Origin: Qipengyuania citrea | GTDB lineage: Bacteria > Pseudomonadota > Alphaproteobacteria > Sphingomonadales > Sphingomonadaceae | DNA: 64,000 nt | Reading direction: 5' to 3' | NCBI RefSeq assembly: GCF_024171405.1 | Contig: NZ_JALJZT010000002.1 | Location: forward strand, 1,364,001 to 1,428,000 | In this document: positions 12,183 through 39,100 of the stretch, in pieces | Layout of the letters: every line of letters begins with the position of its first letter | Numbering within the stretch: position 1 is the stretch's first letter | The notes under the pieces: model-generated | Database searches by the model: none | Seen by the model: the letters and a program-made list of their open reading frames with translations, nothing else | Told to the model about the DNA's origin: nothing | Translations under genes and position numbers: made by a program

Positions 12183-12201
12183 TGGCGGAGCAGGAGGGAT
12201 T
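12183..12201 (+). other. attL: distal direct-repeat copy of tRNA-Ser 3' end
   Basis: The 19-bp sequence TGGCGGAGCAGGAGGGATT is identical, in the same orientation, to 39082-39100, the 3' end of the tRNA-Ser gene including the CCA complement. Identity stops exactly at both ends. This is what a tyrosine recombinase leaves after inserting an element at a tRNA 3' end: chromosome to the left, element to the right. The integrase lies at the opposite end beside the intact tRNA. Confidence 0.85.
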
Positions 12202-12233
12202 ATTAGGTCGCAACCTAATGATTTGAAATCATT
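12202..12233. other. Two back-to-back hairpins abutting attL
   Basis: Immediately after the core repeat lie two perfect inverted repeats: ATTAGGT-cgca-ACCTAAT (12202-12219) and AATGATTT-g-AAATCATT (12217-12233), overlapping by 3 nt. They are AT-rich against a GC-rich background. They could be recombinase or accessory-factor binding sites at the end of the element, or a transcription stop; neither is shown. The rest of the gap to 12471 contains one TCCCACA motif (12261-12267) and nothing else recognisable. Confidence 0.5.
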
Positions 12234-12471
12234 TTCCTACTAATTCGCCGCCAGTTGAATTCCCACAATTCTGACCACACGTCCAGATCGTCGCCGGTAT
12301 TCGACATCAAAATTATGCCCCATCGCGGCGTTGGCTGTCCAGCATTTTCCCTCTCCGTCCGCTCTTGACCTGAGAGAAGAGTTTCCTTTGTCGTCTGATC
12401 CCGGCGCGCGCGACTACCGCCATGCCACGTGCGTTCTGACGATCAAAAGAGGATGGGGAAAAGCGGGTAGA

Positions 12472-12660
12472 CTAACCGTCGCAAGCGCAGCCTTTGCCCT
12501 TCTTACAAGTCTTATCCCGAGCGATGCAGCTATCGCCGCAAGCCTTGCCCTTGCTGCATGTTTTACAGCACCCATCTGCATAAGCGGTACCGCAAACTGG
12601 TGTCGCTGCGCCACTCAGCGAAGCGACAGATAACGCCAACGAAGCCAGTAGAATTTTCAT
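12472..12660 (-). CDS. Small secreted cysteine-rich protein
   Basis: Protein of 62 aa with a typical signal peptide (about 1-27) and a short mature part carrying most of nine cysteines (residues 23, 31, 32, 35, 41, 45, 52, 58, 60) in the pattern CCKxCxxGKACGDSCI...CxxGxGCAC, plus many Lys/Gly. Homologous short proteins of this pattern are widespread in bacterial genomes as uncharacterised secreted proteins. The start ATG is preceded by GGGAGAA at good spacing. It stands alone as the first gene inside attL. Disulfide-rich or metal-binding roles are plausible; none is established. Confidence 0.72.
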   Translation of the reverse strand: MKILLASLALSVASLSGAATPVCGTAYADGCCKTCSKGKACGDSCIARDKTCKKGKGCACDG

Positions 12661-13317
12661 CGTGCGATTCTCCCGTCAGAGGGCGTATCGCGAAAAAGTA
12701 GGGGTCCAGTTAACAGCGATATCCGGGTTCGGTGAAAAGCATAGCCGTTGCCCAGCCATGGGGACATTACACCGGCTTCTACGCTACGCCCTGATCCGGT
12801 ACCCTGGCCGCCTGTTGGTCAGGAGCATTATCGGTCCCCCTACGAGAGCTTATCTTTGCGGGCCTAGCGATCTTTTTATAGTTCTTACTCACTTAGCTCG
12901 TAGGCTGAGCTGCGGCAGGAATGGGGCCGCTAGCCGTCGGTCCGCTTTTGACTGGCTTACGTTTGAAAGCTGCCGAAAGCGTTATAGTGCAAATCGGCCC
13001 AACGTTTGCCGGTCTGGAAAACGCCCTAAAACCGGTCATTCGAGTGACTGAGATTTTCGCCTGAGAACTACTATTAGTTTACCGTAGACTCCATTGGTGC
13101 CTTACGATCTGATCGAGGCGGTTTGAAAGATCGCGCCGTGTTTTAACCGCTGTTGGCTTGGGTGCCGGTATTCATCATGGCGTAGCAAGGCGGCGACCGC
13201 GCTTGAGAAGAATGCGACGTGGCGCTCGACCTTGATCTTGTTTGCAGGTTGCAGCCTTGCCTGAGCGACACCCTCGAGAAATTAGCGATTTTCGATGAAT
13301 TGCGGTATCGGGGCACG
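12661..13317. other. Long non-coding stretch with a dispersed repeat copy
   Basis: About 650 bp without a supportable gene. Open frames here (for example 12662-13051 plus) lack a ribosome site, have non-coding-like composition and no recognisable domain. Positions 12924-12951 (GGGCCGCTAGC..GTC.GTCCG.TTTTGA) match 23314-23341 with three mismatches, one copy of a degenerate intergenic repeat family inside this element. Confidence 0.5.
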
Positions 13318-14265
13318 ATGACGGAACGGCATGAAGCAATTGTCGAAGAGGTTTTGCAATCCTCATCCAGTGCCGCGCATTCTCTTGTCGCGGCGAGCTG
13401 GTGTCGTTCCGGCCTAAGGCATGGTCTCGATGCCGGGGCCAATCGCGCATCGGAACTCGTGTCCGGTAGCGACCTCACCCAACGACGGCAGCGCCATGAG
13501 TTGATGCTGGACGTCGCGCGGCCACTTCTCGACCAGTTGTTCCAGGCCGTTTCCGCTACCGGCTGTGCCGTGATGCTGTCCGATAATAACGGCGTCGTGC
13601 TGGAAGCGCGCAGCCTGGCTGGCGATCGCGAACTCTTTGAGCGAGTTGGTCTGACCCCCGGCGGGGTATGGAGCGAGAGCCGGGAAGGCACCAATGGTAT
13701 CGGCACATGCCTGATCGAGGGTCGGCCCGTCACGATCCACCGCAACGAACATTTCGCCAGTCGCAACATTGGTATCAGCTGCATGGATGCGCCAGTGCGC
13801 GATGCGACCGGCCAGCTTGTCGGCGCGCTCGATATTTCGAATTGTCGCGACGATCACAGCGCCGCGATGGGGATATTGGTGCAGAAGATTGTTCAGGACG
13901 CAGCGCGCCGGATCGAAAGTGGCATCTTTCGCAAACACTTCGCCGCGCATCGGATCGTCGATGCCAATCTGGCGGGCGGAGATGCAGCCCTGCTGGCCGT
14001 GGATCAGGACGACCTGGTCATTGGTGCAACCTTTGCCGCCAGGCACCGCTTCGGGCTGACCGACGCTTGCCTGGAAGCGCGCCGCACGGCTTCCGATATT
14101 CTCGGTAGTGAAGCAGCCCCGTCCCTCCACGACTCGGAACGGGCCGTGTTACGAAGAGCATTGGCGCAGGCCGGTGGCAACGCCACGCAGGCAGCAAAAG
14201 ATCTCGGAATAGGGCGTGCGACGCTTTATCGGCGGATGGAAAAGGTTGGCTTGCAGCGCAGCTGA
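13318..14265 (+). CDS. GAF-Fis HTH transcriptional regulator of alcohol oxidation genes
   Basis: Transcription regulator of 315 aa related to AcoR-type activators but without the AAA+ sigma-54 domain. An N-terminal segment resembles the AcoR N-terminus ([12 protein letters not shown]...), a GAF domain spans about 55-200 ([47 protein letters not shown]), and a C-terminal Fis-type helix-turn-helix covers about 270-312 ([32 protein letters not shown]). ATG 13318 is preferred over the in-frame 13219 because homology begins there. It lies directly upstream, same strand, of the aldehyde/alcohol dehydrogenase genes and of a palindromic site, and so probably controls them in response to ethanol or acetaldehyde. 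Confidence 0.83.
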
Positions 14266-14283
14266 CACATACACCGACCTAAG

Positions 14284-14301
14284 TGTCTCGATAGTGAGAC
14301 A
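14284..14301. promoter_or_regulatory. Palindromic operator upstream of aldehyde dehydrogenase
   Basis: TGTCTC-gatagt-GAGACA is a perfect 6+6 inverted repeat in the 139-bp gap between the GAF-Fis regulator and the aldehyde dehydrogenase gene. Fis-type helix-turn-helix regulators bind inverted repeats of TGTC-N-GACA form, so this is the natural target of the adjacent regulator. It sits about 100 nt upstream of the ATG. No convincing sigma-54 -24/-12 element was found nearby. Confidence 0.55.
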
Positions 14302-14404
14302 GTCTGCCCATGCAATTGCCGGCGGGCTCTTTTCAGCACCGCTTTTTCGCGGAACCATCATCCTCACGACCGGGAGCACCCGGCAAATTCGAGAGGATCA
14401 ACTG

Positions 14405-15925
14405 ATGGACATACAAACAAACCCCGCCGCTTCGATGACGGCTCCGTTTGCGGAGCGCTACGACAACTTCATCGGCGGCAAATGGGTGGCGCCCAAGGAC
14501 GGGCGCTGTTTCGACAATATCTCCCCGATCACCGGCAAGGTGGTCGGTCAGGTCGCGCGCAGCCAGGGGGCGGACATCGAGGCCGCGCTCGACGCGGCGC
14601 ATGCCGCGAGGGATGCGTGGGGCCGCACCAGCGTTGGCGAGCGCGCGCTGATCCTCAACCGCATCGCCGACCGGATGGAGGAAAATCTCGAAAAGATCGC
14701 GATCGCGGAAACCTGGGACAACGGCAAACCGCTCCGCGAAACGATGGCCGCCGACATTCCGCTTGCGATCGACCATTTCCGCTATTTCGCGGGCTGTATT
14801 CGCGCGCAGGAAGGCGGCATTTCGGAAATCGACCACGATACGGTCGCCTACCATTTTCACGAGCCGCTGGGCGTGGTCGGCCAGATCATTCCGTGGAACT
14901 TCCCGATCCTGATGGCGGTGTGGAAGCTCGCCCCCGCGCTGGCGGCTGGCAACTGCGTGGTGCTCAAACCTGCCGAGCAGACCCCGGCCTCGATCATGGT
15001 GCTGATGGAGCTGATCGGCGACCTGCTGCCCGCCGGCGTGGTCAACGTGGTCAACGGCTTCGGCGTGGAAGCGGGCAAGCCGCTCGCCAGCAGCAGCCGG
15101 ATCGCCAAGATCGCCTTTACCGGCGAGACGAGCACCGGCCGCCTGATCATGCAATATGCGACCGAAAACCTGATCCCGGTCACGCTGGAACTGGGCGGCA
15201 AGAGCCCGAACATCTTCTTCGAGGATGTGTGCCGCGAGGACGACGACTATCTCGACAAAGCAATCGAGGGCTTCGTGATGTTCGCGCTCAATCAGGGGGA
15301 GATCTGCACCTGTCCCAGCCGCGCGCTCGTGCATGAGAGCATCTACGACCGCTTTATGGAACGTGCGATGCAGCGCGTCGAAGCGATCAAGGCGGGCAAT
15401 CCGCTCGACATGGAGACGATGATCGGCGCGCAGGCGAGCAGCGAACAGCGCGACAAGATCCTCTCCTACATCGACATCGGCAAGCAGGAAGGTGCTGAGC
15501 TGCTGACCGGCGGCGAGGCGACGCGGTTCGAGGGCGAGATCGCGGACGGCTACTACGTCAAGCCGACCGTGTTCAGGGGCAACAACCGGATGCGCATCTT
15601 CCAGGAGGAGATCTTCGGTCCGGTCCTCTCGGTCACGACCTTCAAGGATCAGGACGAGGCGCTGAGCATCGCCAATGATACGCTCTATGGCCTCGGCGCA
15701 GGCGTATGGAGCCGCGATGCCAACACCTGCTACCGCTTCGGCCGGGCGATCCAGGCCGGGCGCGTGTGGACCAACTGCTACCACGCCTATCCCGCCCATG
15801 CGGCGTTCGGCGGCTACAAGCAGTCGGGCATCGGACGCGAAAACCACCGCATGATGCTGGATCACTATCAGCAGACCAAGAACATGCTGGTCAGCTACAG
15901 CGCGAAGAAGCTCGGCTTCTTCTGA
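14405..15925 (+). CDS. NAD-dependent aldehyde dehydrogenase (acetaldehyde-type)
   Basis: Oxidises acetaldehyde to acetate with NAD. It has 506 aa, standard length for the ExaC/AldB group. The NAD-binding [22 protein letters not shown] motif starts near 162, the general base E262 lies in LELGGKSPN, and the nucleophile C301 lies in [16 protein letters not shown] 14405 is chosen because it has GAGAGGA upstream; the open frame continues 5' only by chance. It is followed after 70 nt by adhP and then the DUF779-acetyl-CoA synthetase gene, making an ethanol catabolic operon. Confidence 0.92.
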
Positions 15926-15995
15926 GGCGACAGGCCGGTGCGGTGAAAGTCCGCCGCACCGCCCCCGAACACAACAGAAATACAGGAGAATTGCT

Positions 15996-17027
15996 ATGAG
16001 CAAGAGCATGAAAGCCGCCGTCGTCCGCGCCTTCGGCGAACCGCTGCGGATCGAGGAAGTGCCGGTTCCGGAAGTGCAGCCGGGTATGATCCAGGTGGCC
16101 ATCCAGGCCTCGGGCGTGTGCCACACCGATCTGCATGCCGCCGAAGGCGACTGGCCGGTCAAGCCCGAACCGCCCTTCATTCCCGGCCATGAAGGCGTCG
16201 GCTTCGTTTCCGCCGTGGGCAAAGGTGTAACCCATGTGAAGGAAGGCGACCGGGTCGGCGTGCCGTGGCTCTACACCGCCTGCGGCCATTGCGTGCACTG
16301 TCTCGGCGGGTGGGAAACGCTGTGCGAAAGCCAGCTCAACACCGGCTATTCGGTCAATGGCGGGTTCGCCGACTATGTTCTGGCCGACCCCAACTATGTC
16401 GGCCACCTGCCCGACAATGTGGGCTTCAACGAGATCGCGCCGGTGCTGTGCGCGGGCGTGACGGTCTACAAGGGCCTGAAAATGACCGAGACCAAGCCGG
16501 GCGATGCGGTGGCGATCTCCGGCATCGGCGGGCTTGGCCACATGGCAGTGCAATATGCGGTCGCGATGGGGCTGAACGTGGTTGCGGTCGACGTCGACGA
16601 CGCCAAGCTCGAACTGGCGCGCAAGCTCGGCGCGGTGGAGACCGTGAACGCGCGGACCGACAATGACCCTGCCGCGACGGTCAAGCGCCTGACCGGCGGC
16701 GTGCGCGGCGCGCTGGTGACCGCGGTGAGCGAGAAGGCCTTCGAACAGGCGGTCGGCATGGTCGGGCGCGGTGGTACGCTTGCGCTCAACGGCCTGCCGC
16801 CGGGCGATTTCCCGCTCAACATCTTCGGCATGGTGCTGAACGGCATCACCGTGCGCGGCTCGATCGTGGGCACGCGGCTGGACCTGCAGGAATCGCTCGA
16901 TTTCGCAGGCGACGGCAAGGTGAAGGCGACGATCTCCACCGCCGGTCTGGACGACATCAATGCGGTGTTCGACCGCATGCGGCAGGGCCAGATCGAAGGG
17001 CGCGTCGTCCTGGACATGACCCAATGA
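15996..17027 (+). CDS. adhP: Zinc-dependent alcohol dehydrogenase, AdhP type
   Basis: Medium-chain zinc alcohol dehydrogenase, 343 aa, oxidising ethanol to acetaldehyde with NAD. Catalytic zinc ligands are in [15 protein letters not shown] and GHEGVG. The structural zinc loop [15 protein letters not shown] lies at about 95-110, and the Rossmann motif [13 protein letters not shown] at about 172-184. The start ATG follows GGAGAA. The last 4 nt (ATGA) overlap the start of the next gene, so translation of the two is coupled. Confidence 0.92.
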
Positions 17028-19303
17028 CGCAAAGTGCCGCGCCGGATGGCCGAGTGGTCCGTCGCGTGATCGCCACCGACGCGGCCACAGCCCTGCTGGG
17101 CCAGATCATCGAACGTCATGGCCCCGTGCTTATCCACCAGTCGGGCGGGTGCTGTGACGGCTCCAGCCCGATGGTCTATCCGCGCGGCGAGTTCCGCCTC
17201 GGCGGGTCGGACGTGCTGCTGGGCACGATCGGCACCACACCGGTCTATATCGGCGCGGCGCAGTTCGCGGTGTGGAAACACACGCAGCTGATCCTCGACG
17301 TGGTGGAAGGGCGAGGCGGCATGTTCAGCCTCGATAATGGAACGGGCCGGCGCTTCCTCGTGCGAAGCCGGACCTATGGGGAGAGAGAAATCGCCATGTT
17401 GCACAAGGCCGACAGGTTTCGCGCCATGCAGGCATCGATCGACAGCGATGCGGACGCCTTCTGGCTGGACGAAGCGCACCGGCTCGACTGGAGCGTCTTC
17501 CCGACGAAGGCGGACGAGAGCAGCTTCGACAAGGGCGATTTCGGCATTCGCTGGTTCGCCGATGGCGAGCTGAACGTCTCGGTCAATTGCCTCGACCGCC
17601 ACCTCGAGACGCGCGGCGACCAGCCCGCGATCGTGTTCGAAGGCGACGAGCCGGACGAAGGGCGAACGCTCACCTATCGTGAGCTGCACTGGCAAGTCTG
17701 CCGCTTCGCCAACGTCCTGAAAGCCAACGGGATCGGTAAGGGCGACCGGGTGATCCTTTACATGCCGATGGTGCCCGAAGCGGCGATTGCAATGCTCGCC
17801 TGCGCCCGGATCGGGGCGGTCCATTCGGTCGTCTTCGGCGGCTTCTCGCCCGACAGCCTGGCCGACCGGATCGCCGATTGCGACGCTACGCTGGTCGTCA
17901 CCGCCGATGAAGGCACGCGCGGCGGCAAGCGCATTCCCCTCAAGGCCAATGTCGACAGCGCGCTGGAGCGCGCGAGCGGGGTCGACACGGTCATCGTCAT
18001 GCAGCGGACGGGTGGCCAAGTATCGATGCGCAAGGGGCGCGACATCTTGTGGGAGGAGGCCTGCGCGGATGCCCCCGCCGATTGCCCGCCCGAAGCGATG
18101 AACGCGGAAGATCCGCTGTTCATCCTCTATACCTCCGGATCGACCGGCAAGCCCAAGGGCGTGCTGCACACCACCGGCGGGTATCTGCTTTGGTCGACGC
18201 TGACCTTCGATCTGCTGTTCGGCCCCGAGGAGGGGAAGGATGTCGCCGACGATCTGTTCTGGTGCACCGCCGATGTCGGCTGGATCACCGGGCACACCTA
18301 TGTCGTCTACGGCCCGCTCTCCAACGGCGCGCGCACGGTCATGTTCGACGGGGTGCCCAACTATCCCGATCCGGGGCGCCTCTGGGAGACCAGCCAGCGC
18401 CTCGGCGTCACGATCTTCTACACCGCGCCGACCGCGATCCGCGCGCTGATGCGGCAGGGCGACCGATGGGTGACGCGCCACGACCTGTCCGCGATCCGCC
18501 TGCTGGGCACGGTGGGCGAGCCGATCAACCATGAGGCCTGGGAATGGTATCATGACATGGTCGGGCGCGGCGAATGCCCGATCGTCGACACCTGGTGGCA
18601 GACCGAAACGGGCGGCGCACTGATTGCTCCCGTCCCCGGCGCTACCGAGACTAAGCCCGGCAGCGCGACCCTGCCACTCCCCGGCGTCGACCCCGAACTG
18701 GTCGATGGCGAAGGGCATCTTCTCACCGGCGCAACGGAGGGCAATCTGGTTCTCACCCGCAGCTGGCCGGGCATGATGCGCACCATCTTCGGCGACCACG
18801 ACCGGTTCTTCCAAACCTATTTCAGCACCTTCCCCGGCACCTATTTCACCGGCGACGGCGCGCGGCGCGACGAGGATGGCTATTACTGGATCACCGGCCG
18901 GGTCGACGACGTTATCAACGTGTCTGGGCACCGCATGGGCACTGCCGAAGTCGAAAATGCGCTGGACGAGCATGTGCTGGTGGCCGAGGCCGCCGTCGTA
19001 GGCATGCCACATGATATCAAGGGCCAAGGCATCCATGCGTTCGTGACGCTGAAAGCCGGCGAAGAAGGCAGCGATGCCTTGCGGCAGGAACTGCGTGACC
19101 TGGTGCGCAGCGAGATCGGACCATTCGCCACGCCCGACGTCATCCAATTCGCGCCCGACCTGCCCAAGACCCGGTCGGGCAAGATCATGCGCCGGGTTCT
19201 GCGCAAAATCGCCGAGGGGCAGCCTGACGAAATTGGTGACATCTCGACGCTGGCGGAGCCTGCGGTGGTCGAGGATCTGGTGGCCAAGCGCATGAGGCCG
19301 TGA
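17024..19303 (+). CDS. DUF779 domain fused to acetyl-CoA synthetase
   Basis: A 759-aa reading frame with two parts. Residues 1-124 are a DUF779 domain (signature [13 protein letters not shown]), normally a separate small protein encoded beside aldehyde dehydrogenases. Residues 125-759 are a complete AMP-forming acetyl-CoA synthetase ([11 protein letters not shown]; catalytic lysine K720 in SGKIMRR), paralogous to the enzyme at 1192-3123. No stop codon separates them. An internal ATG at 17396 is preceded by GGGGAGAGAG, so a separate 635-aa synthetase may also be made by internal initiation. The gene overlaps adhP by 4 nt and completes an ethanol-to-acetyl-CoA pathway. Confidence 0.88.
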
Positions 19304-19343
19304 ACCTCGATTATTTGCTGTGGCCGCTAAGCCCGCTTTCTAG

Positions 19344-19387
19344 CTAAAACCAGACTGACCGCTGTCGGCCCCTTCGAGCCAGTCAGC
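19344..19387 (+). repeat. Dispersed intergenic repeat, left of ars operon
   Basis: CTAAAACCAGACTG followed by a degenerate GC..CGGCCC....CCAGTCA segment; matches 23242-23280 in the same orientation, with 14 identical leading bases and looser similarity after that. The two copies bracket the arsenic operon. Confidence 0.45.
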
Positions 19388-19443
19388 TTTGCGCCCCAAT
19401 TCCGGACGTTCGGCCTCTTCCAAAGAACCCCTCAAAGCGGCCA

Positions 19444-20190
19444 TCACGATGAGGACAGAGCAATCGTCGATATGTCCTCCTCCGGATTGATGACCTTACC
19501 GGCTTCCTTCCTCTCAGAGTAGCGGTCGACCAACTGTTCCGAGTGCGGGCGCAGGAGGACCGTAAAGCGGACTAGTTCCTCCATGACGTCCACGATCCGG
19601 TCGTAGAGCGAGGACCGTTTCATGCGGCCGGCCTCGTCGAACTCCTCGTATGCCTTCGGCACGCTGGACTGGTTGGGGATGGTGAACATCCGCATCCAGC
19701 GCCCAAGCAACCGCAGTGTGTTGACGGTGTTGAACGACTGTGAGCCTGCTGACACCTGCATGACTGCCAGCGTCCGCCCCTGAGTAGGGCGCATGCCTCC
19801 GATGCTTAGCGGCAGGTGATCGATCTGGGTCTTCATGATGCCGGTAATCTGACCGTGCCGCTCCGGGCTGCACCAGACCATACCTTCGGACCAGAACGCA
19901 TGCTCGCGCAATTCCTGGACGGCTGGGTGGTCATCCCCCCCGATCTGATCGGGTAGCGGCAGGTCTGACGGATCAAAAACGCGCGTCTCCGCGCCGAACA
20001 GCTGCAGCAATCGAGCAGCTTCCTCAATCGCGAGGCGCGAATACGAGCGTTCCCGCAGGGAGCCGTAGAGCAGCAGGATACGCGGCGGTGGCTGGTCGGA
20101 ACCGAGGTTCTCGGCAGGACGGGCATGGACGAAGGACGGATCAAGCGCCGGGAAGGTGTCGGGATCGGGCAAGGGACGCAGACGGGACAA
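19444..20190 (-). CDS. arsH: ArsH organoarsenical NADPH:FMN oxidoreductase
   Basis: Cytosolic flavoprotein of 248 aa that in characterised members oxidises toxic trivalent methyl- or aromatic arsenicals using NADPH/FMN. The flavodoxin-like FMN-binding motif [13 protein letters not shown] lies near 40-52, [18 protein letters not shown]-like sequence near 105-125, and the C-terminal [19 protein letters not shown] is diagnostic of ArsH. The start is assigned to TTG at 20190 because GGAGA lies 6 nt upstream and upstream codons lack homology. It is the last gene of the ars operon, 23 nt after ynfA. Confidence 0.9.
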
Positions 20191-20213
20191 AGAAATTCTC
20201 CGAATTCGGGTCG

Positions 20214-28972: not shown

Positions 28973-28997
28973 CCACCAAGCGCAAAAGGAGCGCGCC

Positions 28998-29693: not shown

Positions 29694-29694
29694 C

Positions 29695-31083
29695 ATGGGC
29701 ATTCTGCAAGAACTTTCCGCCCGCTTCCGTCCCGACAAGGTCAAGCTCCAACTCGACGATATCCAAGCGCTGATCCTGCGATCCCGGCCCGAACCCTATG
29801 TCGGCATCCATTCGATGATCCATGTCGACGAGGCCGCGGGTGGTCGGGATCTTTTACGACGCTTGGCCGACCATATCCCTGCTGCATCGGGGTGGACGGA
29901 TGAACTAGATTCGTGGACCGGCGTCGCCATCAGCTACGATGGCTTGAAGGCACTCGGGCTGCCGGAAACCTCGCTGGGGAGTTTTCCGCTGGCCTTCCAG
30001 CAGGGCATGGCCGCTCGTGCCGAGCAACTACGCGATTTAGGCGAAAACGCGCCCGAAACATGGGAGGATCCCTATCGCCCCGGCACCTGCCATATCGCAT
30101 TGACCATTTATGCGCGCGACGACGATGCGCTCGACGGCGTGCTGGCAAAGGCCGAGGCCGAACTGGAAAAATCCACCGGCATCACGCTGATCGGTACGCA
30201 CCGTTTCGGTGCCGACGAGGACGCAAAGAACCCCTTCGGCTTTCGCGACAGCATTTCGCAGCCGTTGGTCGACGGGAGCGGGGTCGACCCCTTGCCCGGT
30301 CAGGAGCGCGCTATCGCGCCTGGAGAATTCATCTTGGGCGAGGACAGTGAGACCGGCAGCCCGCTCGCCATGCCGCAACCCGAACCGCTTGGGCGCAACG
30401 GGTCATACATCGTGCTGCGCAAATACCAGAGCCGGGTCGGCGCCTTCAACGACTTCCTGCGCGGACAATCCGCCGACGAAGCCGAGCAGGATTATATCGC
30501 CGCGAAAATGTTCGGCCGGTGGCAGAGCGGTGCGCCATTGCCGCTTGCGCCGGAACGGGATGATCCGGAGCTCGGTGCCGATCCGCAGCGCAACAACGAC
30601 TTCTCTTACGAAGACGATCATCGCGGCCTTGTCTGTCCGCACGCCGCGCACATGCGCCGCCTCAATCCGCGCGACAGCCAGCTTACGATCCTCAGCGACG
30701 TGAACATCCACCGCATTATCAGGCGCTCGTCTACCTATGGACCGAAATGGAGCCGCGACGTGACATCCGAAGTCGATGCGCAGGAAGATCGCGGGCTGTT
30801 CTTCATCTTCATCAGCGCCAGGGCCTTCGATACGATCGAATTTCTCCAGCAGGAATGGATCAACCGTGGCAACTTCGTCGATCTGGGCGAAGAACGGGAT
30901 CCGGTCGTCGGCCTGCACCAGACGCCCGGGACCTTTACCATTCCCGAAACGCCGGTGCGCCGAAAAATCGATGGCGTGACCACCTTCAACCGGCTGCGCG
31001 GCGGAGAATACATGTTCATGCCCTCGCTCACGGCCCTGCGCTGGATTGGCGACGGCGCATGGGACGAAGGCGCGAGCCCATGA
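29695..31083 (+). CDS. DyP-type heme peroxidase
   Basis: Dye-decolourising peroxidase of 462 aa. The conserved distal Asp is in the motif GFRDSISQP (about 182-190), where the usual GxxDG has Ser in place of the last Gly. The proximal heme-ligand His is in CPHAAHMRRLNPRDS (about 315-330). The conserved distal Arg lies in HRIIRRSSTYGPKW. The C-terminal half carries the second ferredoxin-like lobe (GLFFIFISARAFDTIEFLQQEW). There is no signal peptide, so it is cytosolic. It overlaps the downstream thioesterase gene by 4 nt (ATGA). Confidence 0.87.
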   Translation: MGILQELSARFRPDKVKLQLDDIQALILRSRPEPYVGIHSMIHVDEAAGGRDLLRRLADHIPAASGWTDELDSWTGVAISYDGLKALGLPETSLGSFPLAFQQGMAARAEQLRDLGENAPETWEDPYRPGTCHIALTIYARDDDALDGVLAKAEAELEKSTGITLIGTHRFGADEDAKNPFGFRDSISQPLVDGSGVDPLPGQERAIAPGEFILGEDSETGSPLAMPQPEPLGRNGSYIVLRKYQSRVGAFNDFLRGQSADEAEQDYIAAKMFGRWQSGAPLPLAPERDDPELGADPQRNNDFSYEDDHRGLVCPHAAHMRRLNPRDSQLTILSDVNIHRIIRRSSTYGPKWSRDVTSEVDAQEDRGLFFIFISARAFDTIEFLQQEWINRGNFVDLGEERDPVVGLHQTPGTFTIPETPVRRKIDGVTTFNRLRGGEYMFMPSLTALRWIGDGAWDEGASP

Positions 31084-31499: not shown

Positions 31500-31967
31500 T
31501 GCACACGGCTTCTTGCCCTTTTTCTCCGAGCCATTTGACAATCCCAACGCGAAGGCGCGAAAACTGTATAAGTTCTATTAATCGCAGCCTCACAACTATC
31601 CCCGTTCTAGCGAGGATACCGACCCGTTATCGTTGCATTTGTTATGCAATGCCTCGGCGCTGCCGACCAAGGCGGTCGCAATAGGAGCGCACATTTGCAG
31701 CGATCCCTTGTGCTGAACCGACGCCCACTCTCGGGGGGGTCAGCACGCCGATCGCAAGGAGTGGTTGCTAAGGTGCGAAGCTGCCATCTGGGCTGATGCT
31801 GACGACAGGCAGCTTTCGGAAAAGATTCAAGCGAGCTCAAATGGCCGACATTAAGGCGCAATGCAGACTGACTGCTATGGGCCGATTGGAGAAAGTCCGG
31901 TCTTGGCGGGAAACGAAACTAGAGCAGACTTCCAACACGCGTTTGGAGAATACTATTCTCGAAATCC
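31500..31967. other. Non-coding stretch downstream of peroxidase cassette
   Basis: No gene is supportable. Open frames here lack ribosome sites and domain similarity. A loosely repeat-like segment (CAGACTGACTGCTATGGGCC, 31864-31883) resembles the dispersed intergenic repeats at 19344 and 23242. Composition is less GC-rich than the genes around it. Confidence 0.45.
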
Positions 31968-32759: not shown

Positions 32760-33148
32760 GAAAAATGCGGGTGTGCCTTACCGTGGTGTACCGGCCATTG
32801 AGGCGCACATGCTGCGGCGACCGAGTTATCGGAAGCCCCGCTGTCCGTAGCTGATCATTCAATGCCACAGGATCGTAAAGGTTTCAATAAAAAGTTGAGT
32901 CGCAGAAAGAGTGTGAGCCCTCCGCAATCGGCCAACATGCATTCTGATCGGCGTTACGGAAAGCCTTAATCGAGCTAACTCAAATCTGAAAACCACCGTT
33001 GCTCACAATCGCTACATTAAGGCGCTTACCTGTTGTCGAACAAATTGTCCCCATAATGCTCGACTTACGAGTGGCGAGTTTCAGGCTCGACCAACCGCTC
33101 AGCAAACGACCGAAATTGGGGCGCAAAGCTGCCGTAGGCGCAGCACCC
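32760..33148. other. Non-coding stretch
   Basis: About 390 bp with no supportable gene. The frames present are short, lack ribosome sites and have no domain. Nothing repetitive was recognised beyond the preceding terminator. Confidence 0.4.
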
Positions 33149-33316
33149 CTACGAGCGTTGCGAAAGCGCAATCACCAGCTTGGCGGCGAGCGCTTCTTCG
33201 GCTTTCTCCCGTCGTTCGCGGATCTTTGATACTAGCTGGCGCTTTGAATGATCCGGCATACTAATGATTGCGGCAAGCACCACGGCCTTCAGAAGATCGG
33301 GGTGAGTGGTCGTCAT
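33149..33316 (-). CDS. 55-aa protein coupled to the AlpA-like regulator
   Basis: Short gene of 55 codons reading MTTTHPDLLKAVVLAAIISM, then a helical, charged second half with KIRERREKAEEALAAKL and a hydrophobic ending. A textbook AGGAGG lies 6 nt before the ATG. The start overlaps the stop of the upstream HTH gene (ATGA), so both are made from one mRNA. It appears to form two amphipathic helices. Such small partners are common next to AlpA-like proteins in mobile elements; no function is known. Confidence 0.65.
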   Translation of the reverse strand: MTTTHPDLLKAVVLAAIISMPDHSKRQLVSKIRERREKAEEALAAKLVIALSQRS

Positions 33317-33564
33317 GCGATCCCTCCTGACCCTTCGCCCGAATTTCGCAGCCGCTCTACAAGCGCGCGCAGACTGGACGTAAGAACGAGAGTGGCGCTC
33401 CCCATCTTGATGATCTCGACCTGGCCTTTAGCGATGAGCACGTAGAGCGTGCTGCGGCCGATCCCGAGATAGCGACAGGCTTCGGGTACGCGCATGGCGA
33501 TCGGCTCGATTGCCTGGCGCCCATGTTGCTCGCGAAGATGCTCGGTCGTGCTTGCAGATGGCAT
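33313..33564 (-). CDS. AlpA/excisionase-like HTH DNA-binding protein
   Basis: Protein of 83 aa with a MerR-like (HTH_17) fold: AMRVPEACRYLGIGRSTLYVLIAKGQVEIIKMGSATLVLTSSL (about 22-64), the pattern of excisionase/AlpA proteins that bend att DNA or activate integrase genes. ATG 33564 is chosen because GAAAGGA precedes it; the frame stays open further 5'. It lies within the tRNA-Ser element about 4.4 kb from the integrase and is the most likely recombination directionality factor or regulator of excision. Confidence 0.72.
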   Translation of the reverse strand: MPSASTTEHLREQHGRQAIEPIAMRVPEACRYLGIGRSTLYVLIAKGQVEIIKMGSATLVLTSSLRALVERLRNSGEGSGGIA

Positions 33565-34540
33565 AGCGTTCGGTCCTTTCGTCTGTGGGGTGATGACGGA
33601 CCGACCTGGCGGAGCATGGAGGGAGCAGGTCAGGCCCGCCATCGGTACAGAGTATCGGTCAATACGGTTCAGCTGCGCTACAAGACGTTTCTACGCTGGA
33701 GCTGCCGTATGCGCGCCGGAGCGCCGGCACCCTGCTGACGGGATCCCGGACGGATCTGCTGGTACCGTTACGGACCGGTATAGATCAGTGAGCGGGAGGA
33801 ATATTTCGGTCCATGACAGCTGCAAAATCCGAGCGCCGTCGCATCAGGGTTTGAAAACAAAGAACAATCTGCAAAACCGCCGTCTTGAATAGGACCAAGC
33901 CGGCGCTTTTTCCTCAACAAAACCAACCACATGCAGCCCGACCGACGGCGCTGCTTTTATCTTGCCATGCAGCTTCTTCTCCCAAACCAGACGCTCACGG
34001 ACGATAATCCGCTCGCGACATACACCGGGAATTCTCTGCATGGCTCGTGTGTTCGGGGTGCATTGGTGCTGCTCACCAGGGCATCATGACTATGCAAAAG
34101 CGCGGTCAAGCGACCGCATTTCGACCTGCCAATCCGACCGTTAGCCTGCAGAGCTGCCTCGCGCCAAGCGTGGGCGAGCGTCGCTTGCCGCGCACACAAC
34201 TTGCATTTGGACGTGTACCAAACTTGCAGGGAGCAACCTTGTCGAACGCAATTGCGACACAGTTACTCTGGCGGACTAGACGCTGACGATCGGAGCTTAG
34301 TGCCCAAAGCGGATCCGACGGACTGCTGGCCGAGTGTTCGTGCGACTGCTTTTAGGGGAATCATGAAGATGCTCGAATGTCCGATATTGGGGTGGAAAGC
34401 GGACTGACGGGTTGTGGTAGTTAGATGCATTAAGCGGACGTTCGCCCGATGACGCAGTTTGGGCCGATACCTGATCCGGCCGACATACCTGGACGGAACG
34501 AAAAATCTTCGTCTTCATCAGAGTTTGAAGGGAATAGCTT
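33565..34540. other. About 1 kb without a gene
   Basis: The longest gene-free stretch in the window, less GC-rich than surrounding coding sequence. Short partial palindromes occur near 33640-33800 (for example TACCG...CGGTA around 33761-33782), and GCGGAC/GGCC-rich fragments like those of the dispersed repeats near 34310-34450. No RNA gene or ORF is convincing. Confidence 0.45.
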
Positions 34541-35854
34541 ATGAAGACAGGCGTAATCTCGGCTGCGATAGTGGCGCTGTCGCCATCGTTCGCCCTGGCA
34601 CAAGCCGGAGGACCTCCACCAACGCCGCCCGAGCTAAATGACGAGGCAATCGCAAAAGGTAGGTCGTCCGACACTTCGCGCGCTTACGCCGAAGCTTTCG
34701 GGGTCAACGCGACCGAAGCCAAAGACCGACTGGCCGCGCAAGATAGAGCCGTGGTGTATGCCGAAGGTCTATTGAGTTCTGAACCGTCGGGTTTTGTCGA
34801 TCTTGAAATTCAGCACGAGCCGAATTTCAAGATCGTCGTCTATTACAACAAATCGATCGACCGGCAAAAGCTGACCAGCGCAGCGCCGGTGGAATTGCGG
34901 CGCTATCTGGTATTTAATCCGATCAACAAAGCCCGGGACGAAATTCGGGCCGACCGCCAAGCTGTTTCGCAGGCGCTGACTGCCGCCGGGCTGCAATACG
35001 GTCTCGAATTTTCCTTACGGAAGGGCGAATTCATCCTGGGGATACCGGCCAACGCCGATGAAGCGCGGTACCGCGCCGTGTTACCGACCCTGACACGAGC
35101 TAATATCAGCGTCGTGCGAGGGGCAACCAGCGTCGATGCCGCCGGACTTTATGGCGGGTACTGGTTCGAAGCCGAGTTTTACTGCACGGCCGGGTGGCCC
35201 GTTCGTAACTCTGCCGGCACCGAAGGCCTTCTGACGGCCGGACATTGTGGCCCTCCTTACGAAATGAATTTTTCTTGGAGCAGCGAGCGTCCCGTCTTGG
35301 CGCCGGCATGGGCACGAAAGGACGAGTTGCGCGGCTACCAGACCCTCGACCATGCAATGTATCCCTTGGGGCAGCACACTACGACGCGGGTCATCAATAT
35401 CGAGAACAATCGCGTCTATCGCGGTGAGACGAATACGGTGCCGGGCATTGTTACGGCATTCTACGAGATCGCCAGTCCGCGCCAACCGGTTCGTGGCCAA
35501 TATCTCTGCAAGATGGGTTCGACGACGGGCTTAACCTGCGGGATTGTGGCCGACATCAACTTTAATGGCGACGGGCAATGGAATGTCGTAAAGGTGAGCC
35601 AATCCGCACAAAGGCATATTGCCGAAGGCGGGGATAGCGGCGGCCCCGTCTTTTCGTGGAGTTCCGACGGCTCGATGGTGCATCCGATCGGCATCATGAA
35701 GCGCACCGCACGCGTGAATGACCAAGTATGTCGGAATAGCAGCACCACAGCATCGAACAACACGACCTGCTACTTCACGTTCATCCCGCTTACGACGATA
35801 CGCGCTTACGATCCCTTTCAGGTCAATACGGTAGACGGGTTTCGTTCGCCATGA
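34541..35854 (+). CDS. Secreted trypsin-like serine protease with prodomain
   Basis: Exported S1-family protease of 437 aa. Residues 1-20 are a signal peptide ending ALAQ. About 21-195 is a propeptide-like region with no protease motif. The catalytic domain follows with H235 in LLTAGHCG, D270 in TLDHAMYP and S366 in EGGDSGGPVF, and cysteines C215/C236 and C323/C333 placed for disulfides. The layout is like streptogrisin/alpha-lytic proteases, which use a prodomain for folding. Its last 4 nt overlap the start of a small exported protein gene. Confidence 0.87.
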   Translation: MKTGVISAAIVALSPSFALAQAGGPPPTPPELNDEAIAKGRSSDTSRAYAEAFGVNATEAKDRLAAQDRAVVYAEGLLSSEPSGFVDLEIQHEPNFKIVVYYNKSIDRQKLTSAAPVELRRYLVFNPINKARDEIRADRQAVSQALTAAGLQYGLEFSLRKGEFILGIPANADEARYRAVLPTLTRANISVVRGATSVDAAGLYGGYWFEAEFYCTAGWPVRNSAGTEGLLTAGHCGPPYEMNFSWSSERPVLAPAWARKDELRGYQTLDHAMYPLGQHTTTRVINIENNRVYRGETNTVPGIVTAFYEIASPRQPVRGQYLCKMGSTTGLTCGIVADINFNGDGQWNVVKVSQSAQRHIAEGGDSGGPVFSWSSDGSMVHPIGIMKRTARVNDQVCRNSSTTASNNTTCYFTFIPLTTIRAYDPFQVNTVDGFRSP

Positions 35855-36285
35855 GGCCCTTGGTCCCTGCTTCGGTTGTATCGCTTGCTCTCGCGGTATC
35901 CCCTGCTGCCTGTACCCAGCCGGGCACCGGAGCTGCACAAACTCCGGTGCCGGTGATGGCCGATTACGATCAATCTTTCGACGCCATCGCCTTCTTGGGG
36001 AAACTGCAACGTGACGAAGAGTGTATTGTTCTGATCGGCTCGGACGGAACGCGGTATGTGCCGGTCTTTCGTAAATCGGCAGATGCAACCGAACTGGCCC
36101 GCAAATTCGATCTGGTCAGCGGCGAGACGGTGACGGTCAACGGAATGAACCGCTTCCCGAGCGATGGGCCCGCTGCCGAAAATTTTCGCCCTTGGGCAAA
36201 GTGTGGGACTTACTTTTTTACGTATGGCGGTATCGATAGCGGATGGAGAAAGCCTCCCCGCCCGGCCAACGTGCCGGAAGGGTAG
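35851..36285 (+). CDS. Small exported (possibly lipo-) protein paired with protease
   Basis: Protein of 144 aa with a signal sequence ending SPAAC, which reads as a weak lipobox with Cys at about residue 21. The mature part has a compact beta-rich segment (EECIVLIGSDGTRYVPVF... LVSGETVTVNGMNRF) and two further cysteines that could form a disulfide. It starts within the protease stop codon (ATGA), so expression is coupled. It might be a protease partner, inhibitor or anchor; no family is firmly recognised. Confidence 0.65.
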   Translation: MRPLVPASVVSLALAVSPAACTQPGTGAAQTPVPVMADYDQSFDAIAFLGKLQRDEECIVLIGSDGTRYVPVFRKSADATELARKFDLVSGETVTVNGMNRFPSDGPAAENFRPWAKCGTYFFTYGGIDSGWRKPPRPANVPEG

Positions 36286-36519
36286 GCGAGAGAATGCACG
36301 TGCCTGAGAAAGGCGGCTGACTATAAAGATTTGTATGACAGGACAATAAGTTGCCATGCAGACCTCCATAACTTTTGCGCGTAAAGCCCTCTGAGCCCGG
36401 TCCAATGGCCGCTTTTAGGTAGGGCGTAGGTCACGGTGATTGACCGCGTTCGGGTCGTAAGCGGAATGGCTGCTTTCGGCACGTGTCTCGCAAAAGCGGC
36501 CGAGCGTTCGTTGCGTCGA
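36286..36519. other. Intergenic region with repeat-like fragments
   Basis: Convergent gap between the lipoprotein gene and the MNT-HEPN gene. It contains GGTCCAATGGCCGC and similar GGCC-rich fragments resembling other intergenic repeats of this element. No gene. Confidence 0.35.
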
Positions 36520-37458
36520 TTATCGTTTGTCTGGCCTCGCGTTAGCTTCGGACTTTAGTTTTCTGAGGCGCTCGGAGCACACCTCATGCACCACTCGGCC
36601 AAGCTCTTCGACCTGCTCACCGAGCCACTCGAGCTCTTCCTTGGTAATTCGGTAATGCTTAGAGTAGCGCGCTTTCACGTATGCTTCCTTGAGCTTCTCG
36701 AACCGCGAGCGATCCTTACGGTTGTCGCGCGGCCAGACGTAAGTGAGACGATGATCAATCCGCTCGGCCTGAGTGCGCAAGAAACCCAAGTTGTGGACAT
36801 GGGGAGTGTAGAAAGTGCAGACCAGCAGTACACAATGATACAAGCTTTCCGCAGCTTGATGCATTAAGAACGCTGCTCTCTTATACCGTCCCTTATCCAA
36901 AAGATGATTAGCGCTGTCGACGAAATCGGTCGCTCCGGGCAGCCACTCGTCAAAATACTCCTGCGCCATGGCTAGCGCCTGCGTGGGTGTCTTGGGTTTC
37001 GGCGTATGGAGTTCGCTGTCGTCGGACTGGTAGAGCGCGACCCCGTCCTGCTTCACATCCATGAAGAAATAGCGGCCATGGGCTAACCCGTCGTTCACTT
37101 CCTGAAGCGTGTGGACGATGAAGTTCACCGGCGTGTGCAGCGTGCCGGTCACGCCGTATTCGCGCATTAACCGGTCATCGAGCTTCGACCAGTACTTGAC
37201 CCGGTCGGTCAGCCGCTTGTCGTTGACAATGATGAGCAGGTCGTAGTCCGACTGGTAACCCTTGGCCGTGTGCGGTTCGTCGACCCACGTCCCGCGTGCA
37301 TAGCTGCCGTACAGGATGACCTTGAGGATCCGGCCGGCCTTCTTCCAATCGTGCTTGGCCAAAGCAAAAGCGTCGTCGAACTCTTCAAAGATCAGCTGCA
37401 CCACGCGTTCGATCTCGCGCTGCTTTTGCGGGGGAAGATGATCGAAGTCGGTCTTCAT
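36520..37458 (-). CDS. MNT-HEPN: nucleotidyltransferase fused to HEPN domain
   Basis: Cytosolic protein of 312 aa with two modules. The N-terminal minimal nucleotidyltransferase carries ILYGSYARGTW (G51-S52) and DYDLLIIV (D71, D73), the Pol-beta active-site pattern. The C-terminal HEPN helical domain (about 165-300) contains GRYKRAAFLMHQAAESLYHCVLL and YVKARYSKHYRI. Separate MNT and HEPN genes form toxin-antitoxin pairs in which the nucleotidyltransferase AMPylates the HEPN RNase. Here both are fused, and the canonical HEPN RX4-6H motif is not clear. It is next to the orphan origin and integrase, so it may be an element-maintenance or defence gene. Confidence 0.8.
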   Translation of the reverse strand: MKTDFDHLPPQKQREIERVVQLIFEEFDDAFALAKHDWKKAGRILKVILYGSYARGTWVDEPHTAKGYQSDYDLLIIVNDKRLTDRVKYWSKLDDRLMREYGVTGTLHTPVNFIVHTLQEVNDGLAHGRYFFMDVKQDGVALYQSDDSELHTPKPKTPTQALAMAQEYFDEWLPGATDFVDSANHLLDKGRYKRAAFLMHQAAESLYHCVLLVCTFYTPHVHNLGFLRTQAERIDHRLTYVWPRDNRKDRSRFEKLKEAYVKARYSKHYRITKEELEWLGEQVEELGRVVHEVCSERLRKLKSEANARPDKR

Positions 37459-37571
37459 CGCTCAAACCTTAGCAAGCTGTTCGAGGGGTTGCACCTGCCG
37501 TGTGCGGGAGCGCGTGGCGACGGCGCCACCTAGGTCGCTGAGAAGCCGTGCACAGACGGCTTCGCGTTAGT

Positions 37572-37592
37572 AACAATCCGATAAGGATTGTT
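37572..37592. other. Perfect hairpin in the origin-like region
   Basis: AACAATCC-gataa-GGATTGTT is a perfect 8-bp inverted repeat in the AT-rich gap between the MNT-HEPN gene and the iterons. In plasmid origins such a repeat often lies between the iterons and the rep gene; here the rep gene is absent. Confidence 0.45.
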
Positions 37593-37650
37593 GTTAGCTT
37601 AGTTAAGGGGCGCTGGAGCCCAGCATTTCTGCGGGTTTGAGGCCGGTTTC

Positions 37651-37714
37651 GGTTACCGATAGACCGAACTTCCGGTTCCCGATAGACCGAGCTCCCGGGT
37701 TCCCGATAGACCGA
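37651..37714. repeat. Three iterons of a plasmid-type origin
   Basis: Three 17-bp direct repeats, GGTTACCGATAGACCGA (37651-37667), GGTTCCCGATAGACCGA (37674-37690) and the same again (37698-37714), are spaced 23 and 24 nt apart, about two helical turns, all in one orientation. This is the geometry of replication-initiator binding sites. A perfect DnaA box follows 13 nt later. No initiator gene is in the window. Confidence 0.75.
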
Positions 37715-37727
37715 ATATTGCACAGCC

Positions 37728-37736
37728 TTATCCACA
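37728..37736 (+). other. DnaA box beside the iterons
   Basis: TTATCCACA, an exact consensus DnaA box, lies 13 nt after the third iteron. Together with the iterons and AT-rich DNA at 37565-37620, this has the composition of an oriV. Confidence 0.65.
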
Positions 37737-37787
37737 GGGCCGCCGTCCCGTCTCCGGGGATACGCCATGGTCTACGCTCCATCGCCT

Positions 37788-38936
37788 TTATCCTCCTTTG
37801 CAGCAATTCGCTGCCCAGTCTTCCATCAGCAGCCTGCGCTTTTCCAGCAGATTGCCGCGCCGGTAGGCTGCCTCGGTCTTGTCCTTCACCACATGGGCCA
37901 GCGCTGCTTCTGCGACATCGCTCGGGTGGTTGGTCTCCTCGCTCGCCCAATCGCGGAAGGCCGAGCGGAACCCGTGAACCGTGCAACTCTCCTTCATCTC
38001 GCGCAGCAGCTTGGTAAGCGTCATGTCGGACATCGCCTTCCTCCCCCGCATCCCGGGAAAGGCGAGGTCACAGTTCCTGATCCGCAGTTCCATGCAGCGC
38101 TCGATAATCCGTATCGCCCGATCGCAGAGCGGCACGACATGCTCGCGATTGGCTTTCATCCGCTCTTTGGGGATGGTCCATAGTTTCTCATTGAGATCGA
38201 ACTCGTCAAAGACCGCATGGCGCACTTCGCCCGAGCGGGCAGCGGTGAGGATCGCAAACTCCAGCGCCAGCCTGCTGTAGCTCTCGCGCTCGCGCAGGCG
38301 CGGGATGAAGTCAGGCAGCTTCGCATAGGCCATAGCCGCGAAGTGCCCTTCCTGCCTGGGCTGACGTGGCAGGCCCTTGCTGATCGCGCGCATGGGCGCC
38401 TCGCTGTCGCGGTATCCGGAGGCATAGGCCCAGTCGAGCACTGTTCCGATCCGCTGGCGCACCCGGCGCGCGGTTTCTGGCTTTGCCAGCCAGATCTCGG
38501 CCAGCACGTTGCGGATCATGGGGCCCGTGATGTCATTAACCTGCACGTTGCCCAGATGCGGGAAGGCGTAAGCCTCCAGCGTCCTGATCCATTGCTTCTC
38601 GTGCTTCTCGTTGCGCCAGGTCGATCTATGCTGTGCGAGTACCTTCGCGGTCGCCTCGCGAAACGTGGGAATGCCTTGTGCCTTCCTGCGTTCAAACAAA
38701 GGATCGAGTCCGAGTTCGACCCAGGTCCGGATCTCCCGCGCCCGCTCTCGCGCAATTGCGAGCGATATCTTCGATGCACTGCCCAGACCAAAATCGCGGC
38801 GATTGCCGCTTTTCTGAACCCGGACCATCCAGCTCTTCGTGCCCGACGGCTTCACCACCAGATAAAGCCCATCTCCGTCGCCTATCCTGCCGGGTCTCGT
38901 CGCGGCCTTAACCGCTGTTGCCGAAAGCTTTCCCAT
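37788..38936 (-). CDS. int: Tyrosine integrase of the tRNA-Ser element (DUF4102 type)
   Basis: Site-specific recombinase of 382 aa. The N-terminal DUF4102 arm-binding domain covers about 1-85 (GDGDGLYLVVKPSGTKSWMVRV), the core-binding domain about 95-185, and the catalytic domain has R234 (TAARSGEVR), H321/R324 (HGFRSAFRDWA), H348 and nucleophile Y358 (TEAAYRRGN). ATG 38936 is chosen over GTG 38981 because GGGAGAA precedes it and homology begins there. It lies 145 bp from the tRNA-Ser 3' end, pointing into the element, as usual for tRNA-integrated islands. All catalytic residues are intact. Confidence 0.93.
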   Translation of the reverse strand: MGKLSATAVKAATRPGRIGDGDGLYLVVKPSGTKSWMVRVQKSGNRRDFGLGSASKISLAIARERAREIRTWVELGLDPLFERRKAQGIPTFREATAKVLAQHRSTWRNEKHEKQWIRTLEAYAFPHLGNVQVNDITGPMIRNVLAEIWLAKPETARRVRQRIGTVLDWAYASGYRDSEAPMRAISKGLPRQPRQEGHFAAMAYAKLPDFIPRLRERESYSRLALEFAILTAARSGEVRHAVFDEFDLNEKLWTIPKERMKANREHVVPLCDRAIRIIERCMELRIRNCDLAFPGMRGRKAMSDMTLTKLLREMKESCTVHGFRSAFRDWASEETNHPSDVAEAALAHVVKDKTEAAYRRGNLLEKRRLLMEDWAANCCKGG

Positions 38937-38944
38937 GACTCGAA

Positions 38945-39008
38945 TTCTCCCACATTTATTCCCACAAATCCAATCGGACACCGATGGATGAGCAAGGACA
39001 GTGTGGGA
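38945..39008. promoter_or_regulatory. Candidate integrase arm-type sites (TGTGGGA)
   Basis: TCCCACA (TGTGGGA on minus) occurs at 38948-38954 and 38960-38966 just upstream of int, and inverted at 39002-39008. One copy also lies near the opposite end at 12261-12267, embedded in a shared ATTCCCACAA (12259-12268 and 38958-38967). Repeats of this kind flanking the cores fit integrase arm sites. Confidence 0.45.
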
Positions 39009-39081
39009 CCCGAATCACCTGATAAGCCGCGCAAATTCTTGGCTTTCTCGGGTCGCCGGTGGAAAATAGGGGAAAGGGTGG

Positions 39082-39100
39082 TGGCGGAGCAGGAGGGATT
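39082..39100 (+). other. attR: core at tRNA-Ser 3' end
   Basis: Second copy of the 19-bp direct repeat TGGCGGAGCAGGAGGGATT, identical to 12183-12201. It marks the integrase-proximal boundary of the element. The intervening segment, counting one core copy, is 26,899 bp. Confidence 0.85.

Follow-up and report, generated by a model that had tools for sequence, protein, structure and literature searches.

We analysed a 64,000-nt stretch (the window) of contig NZ_JALJZT010000002.1 from the 3.2-Mb genome of Qipengyuania citrea; positions without a contig label refer to this window. It contains an island integrated at the 3' end of a tRNA-Ser(GGA) gene, the features of which are listed in Table 1. 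The initial annotation had proposed a 26.9-kb integrated element bounded by exact 19-bp copies of this tRNA end, and the proposal holds. The sequence TGGCGGAGCAGGAGGGATT is present on the plus strand at 12183-12201 and again, in direct orientation, at 39082-39100, which gives an insert of 26,899 bp (39082 - 12183). Within the window there is no further match with up to three mismatches, and shuffles gave a mean of 0.04 matches and reached two copies in 0 of 100 cases. The initial annotation had named a recurrence of the 19-bp match at many unrelated sites as evidence against the element; at up to one mismatch, the whole genome has it at two places only and the reversed pattern nowhere. ARAGORN finds one tRNA in the window, an intact tRNA-Ser(GGA) with 59.1 bits against the Rfam tRNA model. 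The right 19-bp copy is its 3' end including the encoded CCA, and an intact 397-aa open reading frame (ORF) with integrase domains is found 101 bp away; the intact tRNA gene and the intact neighbouring integrase agree with the initial annotation.

Sixty genomes of the genus were compared (labelled by G-numbers; fetched stretches carry L-numbers). Genome G069, which is from the same species, provides the empty site. It has a single 19-bp copy and an intact tRNA-Ser(GGA), and the sequences corresponding to window 5712-12201 (96.6% identity) and 39082-39866 (94.8% identity) are directly joined, which is the outcome that had been predicted, as a test set beforehand, for a relative devoid of the insert. 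In the 60-genome search, the G069 match to window 11800-12201 ends exactly where the 19-bp copy ends, so the island can indeed be defined to the base. The locus has a terminal direct repeat, a restored tRNA gene, an empty site in a relative, and an end-adjacent integrase, the features by which tRNA-integrated islands are recognised. Three other candidates for an empty site were rejected: in G014, 12.2 kb of other genes separate the tRNA-Ser from the left flank, and neither G005 nor G013 is clean, whereas G069 is. The insertion site is a hotspot. In G013 (L047, G013:C66, 6953-9623), the left-flank DUF294 gene and the tRNA-Ser 3' end, which is truncated by the contig end, are 2.6 kb apart, and between them lies a tiny element that contains an AlpA-like gene (258 aa) and an integrase (437 aa) other than that of the island.

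Table 1. Features of the island and its ends (window coordinates; att, attachment; HTH, helix-turn-helix).
Feature	Position	Strand	Basis or remark
Left att core, displaced 3' end of tRNA-Ser(GGA), 19 bp	12183-12201	+	Repeat search; empty site in G069
Left att arm, inverted repeat TTAGGTCNCAACCTAA + TGANTTGAAATC	12203-12230	+	Kept in the G067 and G021 elements
62-aa Cys-rich protein just inside the left end	12472-12660	-	Looks secreted on inspection; without Pfam match
Cargo block A, alcohol/aldehyde oxidation, 6.5 kb	12924-19412 (homology 12922-19399)	.	Sharp left end GGGCCGCTAGC
GAF + Fis-type HTH regulator	13219-14265	+	Pfam
Aldehyde dehydrogenase	14216-15925	+	PF00171, E=7e-161
Zinc alcohol dehydrogenase	15996-17027	+	Pfam
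DUF779 + acetyl-CoA-synthetase-like ligase	17024-19303	+	Pfam
Joint repeat A/B	19344-19440	.	Repeat similarity, block borders
Cargo block B: FMN reductase (ArsH-like), UPF0060, ArsB, ArsC, low-molecular-weight phosphatase-type, ArsR-type regulator	19444-23147	-	
Joint repeat B/C, takes in left end of block C	23242-23341	.	
Cargo block C, peroxidase block, 8.5 kb	about 23264/23314 to 31851-31864	.	
Joint repeat	33103-33133	-	Homology to G067 and G068 ends here
AlpA/excisionase-like HTH_17 gene, backbone	33313-33642	-	PHROG 66, E=1.7e-5; PF12728
Joint repeat	34374-34404	-	28 bp from edge of G019-shared block
Trypsin-like serine protease	34541-35854	+	E=2e-6, below cut-off; TAGHC and GDSGGP motifs recognised on inspection
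Fused MNT nucleotidyltransferase-HEPN gene, backbone	36520-37458	-	Domains; HEPN half has solved relative 4nqf, E=2.9e-36
Putative RepA-type origin region (repA absent) with hairpin, 3 iterons and DnaA-box-like TTATCCACA	37563-37741	.	Alignment, covariance model
Tyrosine integrase, 397 aa	37788-38981	-	Phage_int_M, Arm-DNA-bind_3, Phage_integrase domains
Right att arm, two direct TCCCACA motifs	38945-38975	+	Common to window, G067 and G021 elements
Restored tRNA-Ser(GGA), right att core at 39082-39100	39082-39172	-	ARAGORN

Relatives of the integrase (E<=1e-60) are encoded in 39 of the 60 genomes. The tRNA context was checked for the twelve best of them (61 to 48% identity), excluding the window, G067, G021, and a broken gene in G068. 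A tRNA-Ser 3' end faces the integrase at a distance of 112-150 bp in 11 of the 12 fetched loci, and no tRNA was seen in the fetched stretch of the twelfth (G026). When the window, G067, and G021 are added, tRNA-Ser genes are found at 14 of 15 loci, 101-150 bp from the integrase match and with four different anticodons (GGA, GCT, CGA, TGA). Judged from these loci, the integrase clade uses tRNA-Ser genes. Six more distant integrase loci, with short flanks, have a tRNA-Tyr in two cases and no tRNA in four. The G068 relative that was left out of the count (L109, G068:C1:230475-231597) is located at a tRNA-Ser(GCT), and its integrase is split by an inverted stretch.

According to the initial annotation, everything between the two 19-bp copies is cargo. 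This has to be revised. In the stretches compared (L107, L108, L111), the window island and the elements of G067 and G021 have in common only the att arm, about 33105-34008, and 36454-39114 (plus block B in the case of G067); the middle one codes for the AlpA-like protein, and the last comprises the MNT-HEPN gene, a non-coding region of about 180 bp, and the integrase. By this comparison, a backbone of att arm, AlpA-like gene, MNT-HEPN gene, non-coding region, and integrase is recurrent and is associated with other cargo elsewhere. The left arm motif, derived from the window and G067 copies, is found with 0 mismatches in L108 (G067), within a longer match of 73%, and with 3 mismatches in L230 (G021), where it adjoins a copy of the 3' end of that element's own tRNA. 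The AlpA-like protein is probably a directionality factor, as its family indicates. The island thus carries the integrase and, by family assignment, the directionality factor that characterise an integrative and mobilizable element (IME). No relaxase was found among 40 ORFs, mostly from the island, that were run against Pfam, with some small ORFs outside the scan. For the MNT-HEPN protein, the NCBIfam MntA model gives 16.8 bits against a cut-off of 60, and the matches to toxin-antitoxin and defence families are weak or below cut-off; its domains suggest a toxin-antitoxin-like or defence role.

The non-coding region between the integrase and the MNT-HEPN gene resembles a plasmid origin in its anatomy. 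It contains a hairpin (AACAATCC/GGATTGTT) within GTTAG repeats, then a GTTAAGGGG stretch, as well as three iterons (37647-37716) spaced by 23 and 24 bp. The host genome has a second copy at C2:1599785-1599962, which overlaps a gene of the RPA family (PF10134, E=5e-88) at the 3' end of that gene, and homology between the two copies extends about 20 bases into the 3' end of this repA. The genes at the second copy code for RepA, an S26 peptidase (TraF-like), SLT, a DUF3363 relaxase, and TraG. In integrative and conjugative elements (ICEs) of the Tn4371-like type, traF stands beside the RepA and relaxase genes. The block in the host genome (C2:1589785-1600820; L127, L128) has its own copy of the MNT-HEPN gene and, from its gene content, is probably an integrated conjugative element or plasmid. 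The conjugative Novosphingobium plasmid Lpl is annotated with the same gene order plus two additional small genes, and in it the region is present with variant iterons and with a hairpin related to that of the island, followed by GTTAGAGGGG. Several of the top plasmid matches come from Sphingomonadales.

About two iterons also match ten plasmid records of 4.6-7.5 kb, the match being restricted to the iterons. The two plasmids that were inspected, both from Rhodobacterales, encode RPA proteins; the match lies directly next to the start of repA or runs into it, and a TATCCACAG box is located beside a run of related repeats. Because of these resemblances to RepA elements and RepA plasmids, we read the region of the island as a putative RepA-type replication origin. 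Of the constituents of a RepA replicon, iterons and a DnaA-box-like site are recognisable by sequence and an adjacent repA is missing: the only RPA match of the genome (C2:1600053-1600742) is outside the island, and the scanned island ORFs have no match to Rep families except for a weak one to RP-C, below cut-off, in the ArsR-like regulator. The exact iteron pattern, which excludes GATAGTCCGA, the form found in most relatives, has matches in nine stretches from scattered genomes in public collections and none in viral contigs.

A covariance model was built from ten copies of the region and run against the 60 genomes under stricter filters, which may lose weak matches. It gave 29 rows in 16 genomes, which correspond to 28 loci since one locus is split over two rows; RPA matches number 21 and come from 15 genomes. 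At sixteen of the 28 loci, an RPA match is found at a distance of 50-97 bp, and 11 strong loci, including the window, and one weak locus (G077) have no RPA gene nearby. The MNT-HEPN gene adjoins all 11 strong repA-less loci (one matches only the first 202 residues), and 10 of them have an integrase on the other side. These integrases are of three types: that of the window in three islands, a 430-aa type in five, and a type of about 440 aa in two, one of which aligned in pieces. The AlpA-like gene is present in 9 of the 10 repA-less islands, the window being counted and G067:C18 standing outside the ten. A further island in the host genome (C2:735047-738059, L130) has a 366-aa integrase, an MNT-HEPN gene, and an AlpA-like gene; the covariance model gave no match there.

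The anatomy of the region is retained in the absence of repA. Three iterons were counted in 16/16 RepA-linked and 10/11 repA-less copies, the odd copy (L198, G023:C57) having been mislocated by the iteron scan, which counted one iteron, while the model covers its full length. TTATCCACA is present in 10/11 repA-less copies, the exception again being the mislocated one, versus 1/16 RepA-linked ones. The hairpin stems vary from group to group, and the changes affect both arms of the stem (AGGAATC/GATTCCT, AACAATCC/GGATTGTT, ATCAATCC/GGATTGAT), the pairing having been read from folds without a formal covariation count. For nine repA-less islands (36 pairs), the mean identity is 80% in the origin region and 77% in the spacer of 102-106 bp between origin and MNT-HEPN gene; the MNT-HEPN genes of the same pairs have 57.7% at third codon positions and 91.2% at first and second positions. 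The origin region seems to be kept by selection, be it as a replication origin, as an origin of transfer (oriT), or as a regulatory region, because in 34 of 36 pairs its identity is higher than at third codon positions. An RPA gene is present in 5/7 genomes with a strong repA-less copy versus 10/53 of the others (one-sided Fisher p=0.008).

We consider it somewhat probable (about 0.55) that the island is a helper-dependent mobilizable element, that is, an integrative island which forms an excised circle, the origin of which is served in trans by a co-resident RepA element. Its integration at the 3' end of the tRNA-Ser(GGA) gene is shown by the ends and by the empty site; the tyrosine integrase would have inserted the island there and restored the tRNA. 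Integrase and AlpA-like protein, to go by their families, would excise it as a circle. The RepA protein, and perhaps also the relaxase, of a co-resident RepA/relaxase/TraG element would then use the island origin; such use in trans is suggested because the origin is conserved without repA. The candidate helper is the element of this type in the host chromosome, about 197 kb from the island. Several observations weigh against this reading. Five of the 21 RPA genes have no match to the covariance model (run under the stricter filters), and one of the 11 repA-less loci (G067:C12) lacks an adjoining integrase. Two genomes with a repA-less copy (G068, G022) have no RPA gene, and the same holds for G077 with its weak copy; the co-residence may merely reflect genomes that are rich in mobile elements. 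No mating-pair gene was found among the five Pfam-scanned ORFs of the RepA/relaxase/TraG region of the host. Finally, the identity of the origin exceeds that of the spacer in only 22 of 36 pairs, and since the spacer is nearly as conserved, the region could belong to the regulation of the MNT-HEPN gene.

The latter point leads to an alternative in which the iterons belong to a regulatory region, borrowed from a plasmid, that serves the MNT-HEPN or integrase gene, so that an incoming RepA would switch the gene and the region would act as a sensor of competitors. The location of the region 102-106 bp upstream of the MNT-HEPN start in nine islands, with a spacer that is conserved too, fits this proposal, as does the joint occurrence of region and MNT-HEPN gene across three integrase types. 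An operator would not need the full origin anatomy, however, which is kept in nearly all copies, and in the RepA element of the host genome the MNT-HEPN gene is about 9 kb from the region; we regard this alternative as rather unlikely. It is slightly less unlikely that the region mainly mimics an oriT, with its hairpin being cut by the DUF3363 relaxase of the helper, a function that would be compatible with that of a replication origin. In the RepA/relaxase elements the region lies between repA and the traF-slt-relaxase genes, and plasmid Lpl has the related hairpin followed by GTTAGAGGGG, while small RepA plasmids match the iterons only. Iterons, on the other hand, are unnecessary for an oriT, and the scan found no hairpin in 3/27 copies, the mislocated L198 among them. 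We know of no nick site or relaxase specificity for DUF3363 relaxases.

It appears improbable to us that an ancestral plasmid or conjugative element lost repA by deletion and left the region behind as a passive remnant. The homology that reaches into the 3' end of repA is what such a deletion would leave. A remnant should decay, however, and this conflicts with the level of identity relative to third codon positions and with the hairpin stems, which still pair although both of their arms have changed. Least of all do we expect a fixed, dead island with a chance 19-bp repeat and a decayed integrase region, a notion that is hard to reconcile with the exact empty site in the sister genome G069, the intact integrase ORF, att arms conserved in three elements, and blocks A and C that are 98-100% identical to those in other species.

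The cargo is a mosaic whose blocks are shared separately with other genomes. Block A has 99.97% identity in G079 and G068 and 99.8% in G001, which represent three other species. Block B (ars) is found with 85-98% identity in G067, G068, and G075, and block C with 97.6-98.4% in seven genomes. The genes of block C code for an FAD monooxygenase, a TetR regulator, an MscS channel, a second TetR regulator, a weakly catalase-like protein, a DyP peroxidase, and a thioesterase-like protein. The catalase-like ORF, a middle ORF, and the DyP peroxidase form one run (27698-31083), and no family above cut-off was found for the middle protein (28998-29693). Partial versions of block C that have lost the MscS-like gene (window 25555-27104) occur at another place in the sister genome G069 (L121, G069:C2:2259704-2265162) and in G077 (L124). 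The protease and a lipoprotein-like neighbour make up a two-gene block (34541-36285) with 85% identity in G019 (C1:2075462-2077314) and a joint repeat at its left. The gene labels given initially (alcohol/aldehyde oxidation, ars, peroxidases, protease, MNT-HEPN) are broadly right, with some of the assignments below curated cut-offs.

Blocks A and C carry different genes and open with an identical sequence, GGGCCGCTAGC, which was seen in three contexts for block A and in four for block C. Block C argues against one fixed left end, as its homology starts 50 bp earlier (23264) in G013 and G068 and 80 bp later (23394) in G079. The right ends of both blocks fall in a degenerate palindromic repeat. 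At up to three mismatches, the host genome has five copies of this repeat and none of the reversed pattern; all five (5/5) are in islands, namely three in the island described here, a fourth next to the MNT-HEPN gene that belongs to the RepA region, and a fifth in a different island with MNT-HEPN. The repeat was matched in 6 of 10 genomes searched. Borders of homology were counted excluding host-genome loci, matches of <500 bp, endpoints within 60 bp of locus ends, and endpoints near the island ends. At >=95% identity, 6 of 12 distinct borders are within 40 bp of a repeat, compared to 2.9% of the island being that close (binomial p=4e-7), a statistic that is partly circular since both motifs were taken from the borders of blocks A and C. 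At >=70% identity, 12 of 40 borders are near a repeat; by these counts, at least half of the borders lie away from repeats. Both the copy at 33103 and that at 34374 coincide with borders, although they had been detected through their similarity to the A/B joint and without regard to position. We infer that cargo blocks may be gained by recombination at short palindromic repeats. Integron-like cassettes were rejected as unproven: half-sites are shared at block ends, and their orientations fit no single cassette rule. A simple transposon origin of blocks A and C was also rejected, as the ORFs of these two blocks that were scanned with Pfam include no transposase and the block ends differ from plain terminal inverted repeats. 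A more far-reaching and tentative idea is that a family of islands with exchangeable integrases, which keep the origin and lack the replication gene, are "replication satellites" of RepA-type conjugative elements, in which RepA from an incoming or resident element would start replication after excision, MNT-HEPN would secure or enforce the dependence, and cargo would be joined at the palindromic repeat without a transposase.

If the origin is used in trans, both the replication and the transfer of the island would require a conjugative element. This could help to explain why islands that lack recognisable transfer genes share near-identical cargo between species. Because the ends are exact and a sister strain is naturally empty, the idea is directly testable, and the repeat-bounded blocks offer a route to study the trade of gene blocks between islands without transposases.

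The tRNA-targeted islands of Islander have a tyrosine integrase, a regenerated tRNA gene, and a displaced 3' fragment at their ends; the ends of the island in Q. citrea are alike, and its backbone and repA-less origin exceed that definition (PMC4383910). Type VII HEPN-MNT toxin-antitoxin modules have the same domains as the MNT-HEPN protein, but in separate genes, whereas the island has a single fused ORF below the NCBIfam cut-off (PMC11586414). Tn4371-like ICEs combine RepA and relaxase genes in one element and resemble the RepA-linked copies; the island has none of these genes, and the text of that paper has 0 mentions of iterons (PMC2789088). GISul2 and the Brucella IncP island are IMEs that, like several others which encode replication proteins, contain a plasmid replication module; they encode their own RepA, whereas the island described here keeps only the origin region (PMC5704250). 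The word "iteron" has 0 occurrences in the available part of that source, and the available part of PMC11389934 makes no mention of repA-less origins. Among the matches listed from the open-licence literature on helper-supplied island replication and RepA iterons, there is no such origin.

Further parallels exist among mobilizable islands. MGIVflInd1-type islands lack a relaxase and carry an oriT related to that of the helper ICE; likewise, in the island of Q. citrea no relaxase was found, a non-coding region is shared with a conjugative element, and integrase and probable directionality factor are its own, but the shared region contains iterons of the replication-origin type (PMC5704250). Salmonella genomic island 1 (SGI1) is an integrated mobilizable island with an iteron and DnaA-box origin that replicates only with its helper; the putative origin described here is of this type and likewise near the integration genes, but SGI1 has its own rep gene beside the origin, whereas the island of Q. 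citrea has no RPA match and the helper would have to supply RepA (PMC7433901). The island is ordinary in kind, and it is the recurrent core of integrase, putative repA-less origin, and MNT-HEPN gene, together with the repeat-bounded cargo, that sets it apart.

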